The notes under the pieces were generated by a model. The model was not told the DNA's origin. It ran no database searches and saw only the letters and a list, made by a program, of their open reading frames with translations. Positions 50,194-54,619 of a DNA stretch of 64,000 nt are shown here, in pieces. The stretch's first letter is position 1. Every line of letters starts with the position of its first letter. A program made the translations under genes and the position numbers. The stretch lies in contig NZ_CP041242.1 of assembly GCF_006547045.1 (NCBI RefSeq), positions 2,552,001 through 2,616,000 of the forward strand, given 5' to 3'. The DNA is from Lysobacter alkalisoli. GTDB lineage: Bacteria > Pseudomonadota > Gammaproteobacteria > Xanthomonadales > Xanthomonadaceae.

Positions 50194-51900
50194 CTAGGTC
50201 AGCGCCGCCTCATGCACCCCCGCAACCGCCCGTCCTGACGGGTCGGCGGCCTTGGCGAACGCCTCGTCCCAGGCGATCGCCGCGGAAGACGAACAGGCGA
50301 TCGACTTGCCGCCCGGCACCGTCGCCGCACAAGCGGGGCCGGGGAAGAACTGCTCGAAGATGTGTCGGTACAGGTAGGCCTCCCGGGTCTGCGGCGGGTT
50401 CACCGGGAAGCGGCTGGCCGCGGCGGCGAACACGCGGTCGCTGATCTGTGCCGCGGCATGATCGCGCAGGCCGTCGATCCAGCCGTAGCCGACGCCGTCG
50501 CTGAACTGCTCCTTCTGCCGCCACAGGATCGAGTCGGGCAGGTAGCCCTCGAATGCCTCACGCAACACCGCCTTCTCGATCCGCCTGCGGCCATCCGGCC
50601 CGGTGCCGACCATCTTGTGCCTGGCATCCATCGACATCGCCACGTCGAGGAAATCGACGTCGAGGAACGGCACCCGCGCCTCCACGCCCCAGGCCATCAT
50701 CGACTTGTTCGCGCGCAGGCAATCGTAGTTGTGCAGGGCGTCAAGCTTGCGGATGGTCTCGTCGTGGAACTCGCGCGCGTCCGGCGCCTTGTGGAAGTAG
50801 AGATACCCGCCGAACACCTCGTCGCTGCCCTCGCCCGACAGCACCATCTTCACCCCCATCGCCTTGATCCGCCGGGCGAGCAGGAACATCGGCGTCGACG
50901 CGCGGATGGTGGTGACGTCGTAGGTCTCGATGTGGCGGATCACCTCCGGCAGTGCGTCCAGGCCTTCCTCGAAGGTGTAGGTGAAGCCATGGTGCACCGT
51001 GCCCAGCGCCTCGGCCGCAATCTCGGCCGCGGCCAGGTCGGGCGAGCCTTCCAGCCCGATCGCGAACGAGTGCAGGCGCGGCCACCAGGCTTCACTGGCG
51101 TCGTCGTCCTCGACCCGCTTGCGGGCGAAGCGTGCCGCCACCGCCGCGACCAGCGACGAATCCAGCCCGCCCGAAAGCAGCACGCCATACGGCACGTCGC
51201 TCATCAGCTGGCGATGCACGGCAGCCTCGAAGGCTTCGCGCAATGCCTGCTTGGATACCTCCACGCCCCGGGTGACATCGTGCTCCCGCCACGGCCGCAC
51301 GTAGTACTGCACGACTTCTCCGCGCTCGCTGTCGTAGTAGTGCCCGGGCGGGAACTGGGCGACGTCGGCACAGGTGTCGGCCAATGCCTTCATCTCCGAA
51401 GCCACGCATAGGCGGCCGTCGGCATCATGTCCCCAGTACAACGGGCAGACGCCGATCGGGTCACGTGCGACCAGGCAGCGCTGCCGCTCTCGGTCCCAGA
51501 GCGCGAATGCGAAGATGCCATTGAGCCGGCCCAGCCAGGCGCCGACATCGCCGCCGCTTTCCACGGCCTGACGGTACAGCGCACTGATGACCTCGCAGTC
51601 TGAGCCGCTCTGGAACTCGTAGGGACGTTCGAGCGCCTGCTCTAGCTCGCGGTGGTTGTAGATCTCGCCGTTGACCGCCAGCACCAGTTGGCCATCACCC
51701 GAACGGATCGGCTGCGCACCGCCTGCAGGGTCGACGATGGCCAGGCGTTCATGGACGAGGATCGCGCCATCGTCGGCGTGGACACCGCTCCAGTCCGGGC
51801 CACGATGGCGCTGGCGTTGCGATTGGCCGAGTGCCTGCCGGCGCAGAGTGCCGATGTCGTCGCCGGGTTGCAGGCCGAAGATTCCTAGGATCGAGCACAT
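50194..51900 (-). CDS. asnB: Asparagine synthetase B (glutamine-hydrolysing)
   Basis: 568 residues. Cys2 (MCSILGIFG) is the class II glutaminase nucleophile, with NGEIYNHRELE and GRLNGIFAFALWD. The synthetase domain has the PP-loop YGVLLSGGLDSSLVAA, then VLSGEGSDEVFGGYLYFHKAP and WGVEARVPFLDVDFLD. It makes Asn from Asp, Gln and ATP. Upstream lie a leader reading frame with Asn codons and a terminator, suggesting control by asparaginyl-tRNA supply. Confidence 0.97.
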   Translation of the reverse strand: MCSILGIFGLQPGDDIGTLRRQALGQSQRQRHRGPDWSGVHADDGAILVHERLAIVDPAGGAQPIRSGDGQLVLAVNGEIYNHRELEQALERPYEFQSGSDCEVISALYRQAVESGGDVGAWLGRLNGIFAFALWDRERQRCLVARDPIGVCPLYWGHDADGRLCVASEMKALADTCADVAQFPPGHYYDSERGEVVQYYVRPWREHDVTRGVEVSKQALREAFEAAVHRQLMSDVPYGVLLSGGLDSSLVAAVAARFARKRVEDDDASEAWWPRLHSFAIGLEGSPDLAAAEIAAEALGTVHHGFTYTFEEGLDALPEVIRHIETYDVTTIRASTPMFLLARRIKAMGVKMVLSGEGSDEVFGGYLYFHKAPDAREFHDETIRKLDALHNYDCLRANKSMMAWGVEARVPFLDVDFLDVAMSMDARHKMVGTGPDGRRRIEKAVLREAFEGYLPDSILWRQKEQFSDGVGYGWIDGLRDHAAAQISDRVFAAAASRFPVNPPQTREAYLYRHIFEQFFPGPACAATVPGGKSIACSSSAAIAWDEAFAKAADPSGRAVAGVHEAALT

Positions 51901-51941
51901 TCAATTGACTCCGTGGATTCGTATGGGAAGCGTTTGGAAGA

Positions 51942-51978
51942 GGAAAAACAAAAAGGCCCGCACTTCGCAGTGCAGGCC
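51942..51978 (-). terminator. Attenuator terminator in the asnB leader
   Basis: On the minus strand GGCCTGCACT pairs with AGTGCGGGCC (one A-C mismatch) around a 4-nt loop, then TTTTTGTTTTT. It ends ~41 nt before the asnB ATG and ~34 nt after the leader peptide stop, so it can only act on asnB transcription. Confidence 0.88.
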
Positions 51979-52027
51979 GGGGGAGAGCGATGGAACCTTG
52001 GGGTACTAGGTGCTAATCACCGGCCTG
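51973..52027 (-). promoter_or_regulatory. Antiterminator pairing of the asnB attenuator
   Basis: On the minus strand CAGGCCGG (52027-52020, leader codons 35-37) is exactly complementary to CCGGCCTG (51980-51973), which includes the left arm of the terminator. The two pairings exclude each other. A ribosome stalled at the Asn codons leaves CAGGCCGG free to block the terminator; one at the stop codon covers it. Confidence 0.75.
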
Positions 52028-52129
52028 TGGAGGGCTGGCGTTGTCATTCTCGGTGACGTTGGAGACCGGCACGCTGCGGCCGCCCGGAAGGGCATTGGCA
52101 AGGGCGGCGCGGGCGCGGATGAAGTGCAT
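52013..52129 (-). CDS. asnB leader peptide (38 residues, Asn codons near the end)
   Basis: ATG at 52129 with AGGA eight bases upstream; TAG at 52015-52013. The peptide begins MHFIRARAALANALPGG and ends VSNVTENDNASPPQAGD. It has four Asn in 38 residues, three of them within seven codons just before the antiterminator sequence. Size, position and the terminator behind it are those of an amino-acid attenuator leader. That it is translated is inference. Confidence 0.8.
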   Translation of the reverse strand: MHFIRARAALANALPGGRSVPVSNVTENDNASPPQAGD

Positions 52130-52234
52130 GGGTCGATCCTGACGCAGTGTCGCCGCCCTTGCAAGCGACGATTTCATATGTAACGGACCGCAGTTTGGAT
52201 AAGCTCGACGAACACCATTCTGGAAGGGGACACC

Positions 52235-54619
52235 ATGGTGCGTTCGCTGGTTAGGGGAGCGCTGCTGCTCCTGCTGGGCGCTGCACTGCTGGTCATCGCG
52301 ATATGGCTGCTGATGGCCGCCAGTCTGCCGAAGCTCGATGGGGGGCTGTCGCTGCACGGGCTCTCGGCCGAGGTCACTGTCGAACGCGATGCGCTCGGCG
52401 TGGTCACCATCGACGCGCGCAACCGAGAGGATGCGATGCGTGCGCTGGGTCATGTCCATGCCCAGGAGCGCTATTTCGAGATGGATCTGATGCGTCGCAC
52501 CGCGGCCGGCGAACTGGCCGCGCTGTTCGGCCCGGCCGCGGTGGAAGCCGACAAACGCCATCGCATCCATCGCATGCGTGCGCGAGTGCGCGAGCACATG
52601 GACACGATCACCGGCACCCAGCGAGCGATGATCGAAGCCTATGTCGAAGGCGTGAATGCCGGCCTTGCCGACCTGAAGGCACGGCCGTGGCCCTACCTGT
52701 TGTTGCGCAAAACACCCGAACCGTGGCGCCTGGAGGATTCAGCACTGGTCGCCTATGCGATGTACTTCGACCTGCAGGACGCTTCCAATGCCGACGAACT
52801 GGCTCTGTGGAAACTGAAGCCGCACCTGCCGGCGCCGCTGTTCGAACTGATCACCCACGGCGGCAGCCGCTGGGACGCACCGATCACCGGTGCGGCGGTG
52901 GGCGACGCGACGCTGCCCGGCCCCGACCGCGTCGACCTGCGCCAACTGCCATTCGACGACACCACGGCAATCGTACCGTTGCCCGATGCCCGGGTCGTGG
53001 GCAGCAACAACTTCGCCGTCGCCGGCAGCCTGACCCGCAACGGCCGCGCGATCGTCGCCGACGACATGCACCTGGGGCTGCGTGCGCCGAACATCTGGTT
53101 CCGTGCCCGCCTGCGCTACCCCGAGCGCAATGCCGCCGGCGGCCGGGTCGACGCCACCGGCTTCACCCTGCCGGGGTTGCCGGCGATCGTGGTCGGCAGC
53201 AATGGGCATGTCGCCTGGGCATTCACCAACAGCTACGGCGACTGGCTCGACTGGCGGCAGCTGCCGCCCTGCCCCCACGCCGCGGCGGACTGCATGCCCG
53301 GCACGACGGTGGTCGAGCGGATCGAAGTGGCCGGTGCCGATGATGTCGATTTCGAGATCGAGGAGACCGCCTGGGGCCCGGTCCTGCATCGCGACGACAA
53401 AGGTAACCGACTGGCGTTGCGCTGGGTCGCACACTTGCCGGGCTCGTTGACGATGGAGCTGGCCCGCTTCGCCGAGACAGGCACGGTGAACGCGGCATTG
53501 CGCCTGGCCGACGACATCGCCATTCCGGCACAGAACCTGCTGGTCGGCGATGCCCATGGGCGCATCGCCTGGCGCCTGCTCGGTCCATTGCCCGATCGCG
53601 GCGAACACTGCATCGCCTCACCACGCGATACCGCCGGCAGATCTGCCGACACGCTCCTGGGCGACCTCGAGGCCTGTCCGCCGTGGGCATTGGCCGCATC
53701 GACCGGCGTCAGCGTGTCCGGCCCCGGCACCGCGCGGCTGTGGACGGCCAACAGCCGCGTGGTCGACGGCGACATGCTGGCGCGCATCGGCGATGGCGGC
53801 TATTCGCTCGGCGCCCGTGGCCAGCAGATCCGCGACTCGCTCGAGGCCCGCCGCCGCTTCGACGAACACGACCTGCTCCGGATCCAGCTCGATGACCGGG
53901 CCCTGTTCCTCCAGCGCTGGCATGACCTGCTGCAACAGCAGGCGCAACAGGCCCGTACCCCGGCGTTGCAGACCGTGGCTGCAGCCGCGGCCGGCAGATC
54001 GGGGCATGCAGGCATCGATTCGGTCGGCTACCGGCTGGTCCGCGGCTGGCGGCTGAAAGTGCTCGAGCGCATCACCGACGGCCTGCTCTCTCCCGCACGC
54101 GACGCACTCGGCGAGGACTTCGCGATGCCGGCATTGAAGCAACTGGAAGGCGTGGCCTGGCCGCTGGTGACCGAGCAGCCTATGCACCTGCTGTCGCCGC
54201 GCCATGACACCTGGCAGGCCCTGTTCGAGGATGCCGCCGCCGAACTGCGTGATGAACTCGAAGCATCCGGGCCGCTGGAAGAGCGCAACTGGGGCGAACG
54301 CAACACCGCCCGTATCTGCCACCCGCTGTCACGTGCCCTGCCCGACCTGGCCAAACCATTGCTGTGCATGCCGGCCGAACCGCTGCCGGGCGACAGTCAC
54401 ATGCCGCGCGTGCAGGGTCCTGACTTCGGCGCATCGCAGCGGATGGTGGTTTCGCCCGGCCATGAGGCCGACGGCATCGCCCACATGCCCGGGGGCCAGA
54501 GCGGCCATCCGCTGTCGCCGTTCTGGGGCGCAGGCCATGACGACTGGGTGCATGGCAGGCCAACGCCATTCCTGCCGGAACCGGCACGGTACACGCTGGT
54601 ACTGACGCCCGCGAAGTAG
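52235..54619 (+). CDS. Penicillin acylase family (Ntn-hydrolase) protein
   Basis: 794 residues. An N-terminal membrane anchor or signal (LLLLLGAALLVIAIWLLMA) is followed by the alpha chain (VTVERDALGVVTIDA, GHVHAQERYFEMDLMRRTAAGEL). The Ntn nucleophile is Ser257 in VVGSNNFAVAG, where autocleavage would create the beta chain. VSPGHEADGIAHMPGGQSGHPLSP is the conserved C-terminal block. Family members split amide bonds of beta-lactams, acyl-homoserine lactones or other N-acyl compounds; quorum quenching is possible but unproven. It is divergent from the asnB leader. Confidence 0.93.
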   Translation: MVRSLVRGALLLLLGAALLVIAIWLLMAASLPKLDGGLSLHGLSAEVTVERDALGVVTIDARNREDAMRALGHVHAQERYFEMDLMRRTAAGELAALFGPAAVEADKRHRIHRMRARVREHMDTITGTQRAMIEAYVEGVNAGLADLKARPWPYLLLRKTPEPWRLEDSALVAYAMYFDLQDASNADELALWKLKPHLPAPLFELITHGGSRWDAPITGAAVGDATLPGPDRVDLRQLPFDDTTAIVPLPDARVVGSNNFAVAGSLTRNGRAIVADDMHLGLRAPNIWFRARLRYPERNAAGGRVDATGFTLPGLPAIVVGSNGHVAWAFTNSYGDWLDWRQLPPCPHAAADCMPGTTVVERIEVAGADDVDFEIEETAWGPVLHRDDKGNRLALRWVAHLPGSLTMELARFAETGTVNAALRLADDIAIPAQNLLVGDAHGRIAWRLLGPLPDRGEHCIASPRDTAGRSADTLLGDLEACPPWALAASTGVSVSGPGTARLWTANSRVVDGDMLARIGDGGYSLGARGQQIRDSLEARRRFDEHDLLRIQLDDRALFLQRWHDLLQQQAQQARTPALQTVAAAAAGRSGHAGIDSVGYRLVRGWRLKVLERITDGLLSPARDALGEDFAMPALKQLEGVAWPLVTEQPMHLLSPRHDTWQALFEDAAAELRDELEASGPLEERNWGERNTARICHPLSRALPDLAKPLLCMPAEPLPGDSHMPRVQGPDFGASQRMVVSPGHEADGIAHMPGGQSGHPLSPFWGAGHDDWVHGRPTPFLPEPARYTLVLTPAK

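Follow-up and report, generated by a model that had tools for sequence, protein, structure and literature searches.

The region upstream of asnB in Lysobacter alkalisoli most probably contains a ribosome-mediated attenuator through which the level of charged tRNA-Asn governs asnB transcription, with a leader that is probably a leaderless mRNA. From the sequence comparisons described here, we give this reading a probability of roughly 0.92. The leader would probably let the cell turn on asnB when asparagine is short. The element was located in a window of 64,000 nucleotides (the whole stretch of DNA that was analysed; contig NZ_CP041242.1, positions 2,552,001 to 2,616,000), and all positions below are counted from the first letter of this window unless stated otherwise.

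Layout of the asnB leader region

The asnB gene (51900-50194, minus strand) encodes a glutamine-hydrolysing asparagine synthase B, whose product matches NCBIfam NF006949 at 848.3 bits (cut-off 499) and also Pfam Asn_synthase; a Shine-Dalgarno-like GGAG precedes it (51912-51909, minus strand). Upstream on the same strand, we recovered the short frame that an earlier, sequence-only reading of this DNA had described as 38 codons with three Asn codons in a seven-codon span and a stop. This leader peptide, MHFIRARAALANALPGGRSVPVSNVTENDNASPPQAGD, extends over 52129-52013, from the ATG at 52129 to a TAG at 52015-52013, and is supported by the open reading frame itself and by its relatives. Asparagine codons occupy positions 12 (52096-52094), 24 (52060-52058), 28 (52048-52046) and 30 (52042-52040), the last three of which (52060-52040, minus strand) are the putative control codons, with Asn-rich counterparts in relatives. 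The U-tailed terminator that had been claimed in front of asnB was located by a terminator scan as a stem-loop of 10 bp with a GCGA loop (51978-51955, minus strand), which covaries among relatives and is directly followed by the U tract TTTTTGTTTT (51954-51944, minus strand). The pairing announced between leader codons 35-37 and the left arm of this terminator proved to be exact: CAGGCCGG (52027-52020, minus strand), the 5' half of the candidate antiterminator (segment 2), is the complement of CCGGCCTG (51980-51973, minus strand), its 3' half (segment 3), which overlaps the terminator left arm. Both halves were assigned from complementarity and covariation. On the other flank of the leader, a penicillin amidase family gene (52235-54619, plus strand) is divergent from asnB; the terminator is therefore not the transcript end of that gene.

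Taken alone, the window is only suggestive. When the 500 nt ahead of asnB were shuffled with dinucleotides preserved, a frame of 12-60 codons with at least three Asn in seven codons appeared in 11/2000 cases, and a perfect 8-nt match was reached against the terminator arm by 34/5000 shuffled leader tails of the window; the case therefore becomes convincing only together with the relatives. The fold of the whole leader is not unusually stable (z -1.45), since 19 of 200 shuffles fold equally well.

Conservation of the leader and of its two stems

We gathered 76 asnB upstream regions, defined by an asnB of at least 68% identity, plus the loci L111-L113. Removing five in which no leader frame was obtained (L008, L010, L039, L088 at a contig end, and L103) and three duplicates left 68 unique loci, each with a short frame holding at least three Asn in ten codons. 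L103 was excluded by hand, its best frame having scattered Asn and no terminator. The contigs of L008, L010 and L039 are labelled Holophagales, Rhodococcus and Deltaproteobacteria, and their asnB, found without a leader, groups inside Lysobacterales in our tree, so that either misassigned contigs or transfer could be involved. The last 25 leader codons contain at least four Asn in 63 of the 68 loci, with runs such as NNNNRNN and NNNANNN; the L. alkalisoli leader is among the weakest, with three, as in five of the 68. Examples are NNNNRNNASLPRAGD in Lysobacter, NNNNRNNLRANNRARPMRDCD in Stenotrophomonas, NNNRANNNANRWRARA in Rhodanobacter and NNNANNNTRIDGWAGV in Dyella. The stop codons of the 68 leaders are TAG (59), TAA (7) and TGA (2), a TAG excess that looks unusual for GC-rich genomes. 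The ten-codon criterion is loose, as it also retrieved frames in 8/38 distant loci (L043-L080), several of them AT-rich frames of Vibrionaceae; therefore the terminator, the pairing and the position were also required. The Asn-rich frames of L061 and L078 were dropped because no convincing terminator stands between the frame and asnB.

A covariance model built from 67 leaders was run on 149 family genomes and its matches compared with the asnB positions in that sample, where asnB was found at E 1e-180 or better in 131 of the 149. Among the matches listed, 113 of the 116 asnB with at least 68% identity have one upstream on the same strand, at 19-357 nt, as opposed to none of the 15 asnB with 62-67% identity; four of these 15 (L115, L116, L117 and L119) were read directly and have no Asn leader. 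Regarding the three misses among the 116, the element of G028 adjoins a fragment of asnB on a separate contig, an Asn-rich leader with a terminator can be seen by eye in G063, and the reading of G009 revealed no leader element. The set of 15 regions from which L111-L113 were taken had leaders in those three and none in eight, while L118, L120, L122 and L124 were left unjudged as the start of asnB was not located. In the genome of L. alkalisoli, the asnB leader is the sole strong match (89.5 bits; the next has 31.3). In L150 (G128:C1:2420700-2423200), an intact element is followed by an asnB frame that is interrupted in the assembly, by a sequencing error or a real change. The 68 loci and the 113 of 116 orthologues among the matches listed indicate that the leader frame and its Asn codons are conserved and do not vary freely, a point on which the sequence-only reading had staked its proposal.

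That reading had also recommended aligning the upstream regions, and in our alignment both the terminator and the antiterminator covary. A terminator is located between leader and asnB in 67 of the 68 unique loci, the exception being L112; in the alignment of these 67 sequences, 93.8% of the cells are paired and seven of the ten pairs changed on both sides. For the antiterminator, 72.8% of the cells are paired, compared with 33-43% when slid by 1 to 3 columns, and its covariation score was above all 500 of 500 shuffles. Two of the five antiterminator measures were not above shuffles, namely the pairs changed on both sides (5 vs 4.7) and the further pair types (9 vs 10.7), and the outer pairs are poorly kept, with 43/67 and 50/67 unpaired in two columns. 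In the 37 of 67 loci fitting the search pattern, a leader A (CAG) always stands opposite an arm U (8/8) and a leader G opposite an arm C (29/29), without mismatch; over the whole alignment, this pair (65:124) is GC in 58, AU in 8, unpaired in none and a gap in one. Inside the terminator, the same arm base forms C-G in 59, U-G in 7 and U-A in 1. The arm U thus gives an AU in the antiterminator, for which it is maintained, although the terminator then mostly has a U-G wobble at that place. Duplex energies point in the same direction: the native leader-arm duplexes average -18.0 kcal/mol, swapped ones -15.4 and shuffled ones -11.4, none of 10000 random leader-arm pairings reached the native mean, and in 45 of 67 loci the native duplex was stronger than that of any of the 20 tails obtained by shuffling. 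For a 1:2 pause hairpin, the native mean was reached by 159 of 5000 permutations, and all 20 shuffles were beaten in only 8 of 68 loci.

The conserved leader, its Asn codons, the terminator and the covarying antiterminator together support the asparagine version of attenuation that had been proposed, and they bear on two other explanations. It is very unlikely that the short frame makes a trans-acting peptide or small RNA, similar to what is reported for peTrpL of Sinorhizobium meliloti, and does not act, or does not only act, as an attenuator in cis. A terminated leader would indeed be a small leaderless RNA, as passages of PMC7298713 describe for rnTrpL, but the N-terminal half of the peptide is dissimilar between genera (by eye), whereas the Asn codons, the spacing and the pairing are kept. 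Hardly credible is a terminator that is constitutive, or regulated by Rho, a binding protein or a riboswitch, accompanied by an Asn-rich frame by chance. A terminator can lower expression by itself, but such a frame stands at the same place throughout the family sample and the antiterminator covaries separately from the terminator. Furthermore, with matches taken up to an E value of 1, the Rfam scan of 51500-52600 placed no T-box or riboswitch on the leader. In that scan, the terminator is overlapped by a weak match to the suhB sRNA (18.6 bits, cut-off 41), and no match above any family cut-off was obtained for the window plus eight relatives, with sub-threshold scores of Thr_leader (30.1 bits, cut-off 55) and Trp_leader (27.8 bits, cut-off 41) at the leader regions of L013 and L017.

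Promoter-like site and the proposed switch

A -35-like box, TTGCAA (52164-52159, minus strand), and a -10-like box, CAGGAT (52141-52136, minus strand), separated by a 17-nt spacer, end 6 nt before the leader ATG. The first was assigned from the kept position of its TTGC and the second by comparison with relatives. Counted from an in-frame leader start codon, a TTGC begins at -37 to -34 in 62 of the 68 loci, and in 0 to 16 loci for 13 other windows of equal width; position -1 is a C in 61 of those 62. Under strict criteria, 17/68 loci have a -35/-10 pair whose end lies 6-8 nt ahead of the start codon, vs 7/1360 shuffles, and five other distance windows gave none or one locus. At the -10 place, relatives have, for example, TACGGT, TAGGGT, TAGCGT or CACTAT. 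This promoter-like site, conserved some 35 nt ahead of the leader ATG, speaks against a transcription start downstream of 52027, and its position suggests that the leader ORF is probably leaderless, with the A of the ATG as the likely start.

The sequence-only reading had given the leader a ribosome site, AGGA (52140-52137), 7 nt ahead of the ATG. On this point we differ, since AGGA lies inside the -10-like CAGGAT and is more likely part of the -10 box. It could still belong to the same attenuator with an ordinary 5' untranslated region, in which AGGA would be a true Shine-Dalgarno site and the promoter would lie further upstream. This arrangement seems rather unlikely: Shine-Dalgarno-like 4-mers do precede 18 of 62 leaders, but 17 of these 18 have CAGGAT at that place and 44 of the 62 have none, whereas asnB itself has one in 60 of the 68 loci; the 17/68 strict promoter pairs close to the start codon also argue against it.

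The mechanism that we infer from these sequences, including the start at the ATG, the stalling, the switching and the response to asparagine, would be as follows. Transcription would begin at or beside the leader ATG, and the leader would be translated as a leaderless mRNA. With ample Asn-tRNA, the ribosome would reach the stop codon and cover segment 2, the left arm would then pair with the right arm, and transcription would end before asnB. When Asn-tRNA is scarce, the ribosome would wait at the Asn codons; segment 2, left uncovered, would capture the left arm while the right arm has yet to be synthesised, and transcription would proceed into asnB. The distances are compatible with these steps. 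A ribosome covers about 10 nt past its A site, and in 50 of 67 loci segment 2 begins to pair 9-14 nt after the last Asn codon (most commonly 11 nt, in 24 loci; 12 nt beyond Asn codon 30 in L. alkalisoli); therefore a ribosome stalled at the last Asn codon should just leave segment 2 exposed, and a ribosome that has reached the stop codon should cover it. Before the right arm is made, the predicted fold energy is -20.7 kcal/mol when the ribosome sits at the last Asn codon and masks up to 10 nt beyond it, vs -3.2 when it is placed at the stop. When the full RNA is folded in silico with segment 2 unmasked, the terminator remains the lowest-energy form, and the switching must therefore be kinetic, decided during transcription.

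The supply of asparagine was considered from the gene content. AsnRS is above the cut-off in 57 of 60 genomes, L. alkalisoli included, and AsnA in none of the 60, with no match in L. alkalisoli; GatB also had no match in the L. alkalisoli genome, in a search that was positive in 12/14 control genomes. With AsnRS present and AsnA and GatB not found, Asn-tRNA should therefore depend on free asparagine. Codon use also differs between the leaders and the genes behind them, AAT accounting for 187/408 Asn codons in the leaders vs 84/546 in the asnB genes (odds ratio 4.65).

Relation to known attenuators and leaders elsewhere

Leader-peptide attenuation is classical for the trp, his, leu, ilv, thr and phe operons. 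The asnB element shares with these a short ORF rich in codons for the product, mutually exclusive antiterminator and terminator, and a terminator before the structural gene; in contrast to them, it would respond to asparagine, is apparently leaderless, has no clear 1:2 pause hairpin and has asnB directly behind it. Asparagine is sensed by T-box riboswitches of Firmicutes, which respond to the charging of tRNA-Asn and control Asn genes by antitermination. Unlike the asnB element, T-boxes bind the tRNA directly and involve no peptide, and the asnB leader region has no Rfam T-box match up to E 1. The attenuators of proteobacteria were reportedly surveyed by Vitreschak and others in 2004.

By word search, asparagine is absent from the main text of an attenuator survey based on terminator analysis (PMC2965389) and goes unmentioned in one of Actinobacteria (PMC1262725). 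For Xanthomonas, one paper lists AsnB2 in a table, which does not refer to attenuation (PMC3771888), and a word search of another retrieved no asnB, asparagine, attenuation or leader (PMC3744752). Passages of PMC7298713 describe an attenuated RNA of S. meliloti trpL whose 5' end coincides with the leader ATG, so that leaderless attenuators are known already; that system differs in its amino acid, tryptophan, and in belonging to another class of bacteria. Within the openly licensed literature, which was the scope of our search, we recognised no earlier description of an asparagine leader peptide. Therefore, the class of attenuator is known and its asparagine specificity is apparently undescribed, a provisional conclusion. 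With this element, asparagine would join the amino acids that are monitored through leader peptides, and there would be a probable account of asparagine synthase control in Lysobacteraceae (Xanthomonas, Stenotrophomonas, Lysobacter and relatives); a new RNA-family entry could start from the 67 aligned leaders. If confirmed, the fusion of promoter and start codon would provide a simple system for the timing of transcription and translation with neither a Shine-Dalgarno site nor an evident pause hairpin.

A comparable arrangement was found in a second lineage. In L062, a locus from a metagenome-assembled genome labelled Rubrivirga (Rhodothermota), asnB is preceded by an Asn-rich frame and a terminator of 13 bp; with its relatives L168, L169, L170, L172 and L173 it makes six of six loci in which the frame holds at least three Asn and the stem measures 13 to 15 bp. 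Pairing between leader and arm did not reach significance in these six loci, where 19 to 123 of 200 shuffled tails were equally strong. Six more distant relatives (L174-L179) have no such leader by eye, and L180 was left out of the comparison because its sequence begins inside the gene. In a tree of 67 asnB proteins from a selection of loci, the two leader-bearing groups are on opposite sides of a branch with 100/97 support. Two origins of the asparagine leader are therefore likely, loss elsewhere being the alternative.

The model also retrieved leaders of other amino acids. Sixteen of the listed matches lie away from asnB, and all but four of these were read; eleven secondary matches were examined as leaders, one being from the L. 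alkalisoli genome. Nine of the eleven, L141 and L145 being the others, are leaders with Leu/Val/Ile or Thr runs before genes similar to ilvC, ilvD or threonine dehydratase; gene names were checked for three (ilvD in L136, a fragment under the cut-off, ilvC in L137 and threonine dehydratase in L140), the rest being assigned by likeness. By eye, a TTGACA stands at -35 to -38 from the chosen leader ATG in the seven loci whose upstream sequence was inspected. The ilvC/ilvD attenuators (L136 in L. alkalisoli, together with L137, L138, L142 and L143) have their layout in common with the asnB element, whose model found them, and differ in having Leu/Val/Ile codons instead of Asn. Considering these leaders jointly with those of Rhodothermota, the chances seem evenly divided on a broader proposal. 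According to it, asparagine attenuation would have two or more origins, one among Lysobacterales and another among Rubrivirga-type Rhodothermota, and the amino-acid attenuators of Lysobacteraceae (asnB, ilvC, ilvD and threonine dehydratase) would be leaderless as a class, with the promoter fused with the leader AUG. The first ribosome would then load at the 5' end while the RNA is still being made, and this loading may replace the timing provided by the trp pause hairpin.

Two of these loci present further features. In the L. alkalisoli genome, outside the window, L136 (G000:C1:589870-589996, minus strand) consists of a LILVLVLI leader and a terminator before ilvD, with TTGACA at -38. In L140 (G156:C72:6633-6758), the Thr-rich leader SATTTTITTREFAG and a terminator precede threonine dehydratase, a threonine-consuming enzyme.
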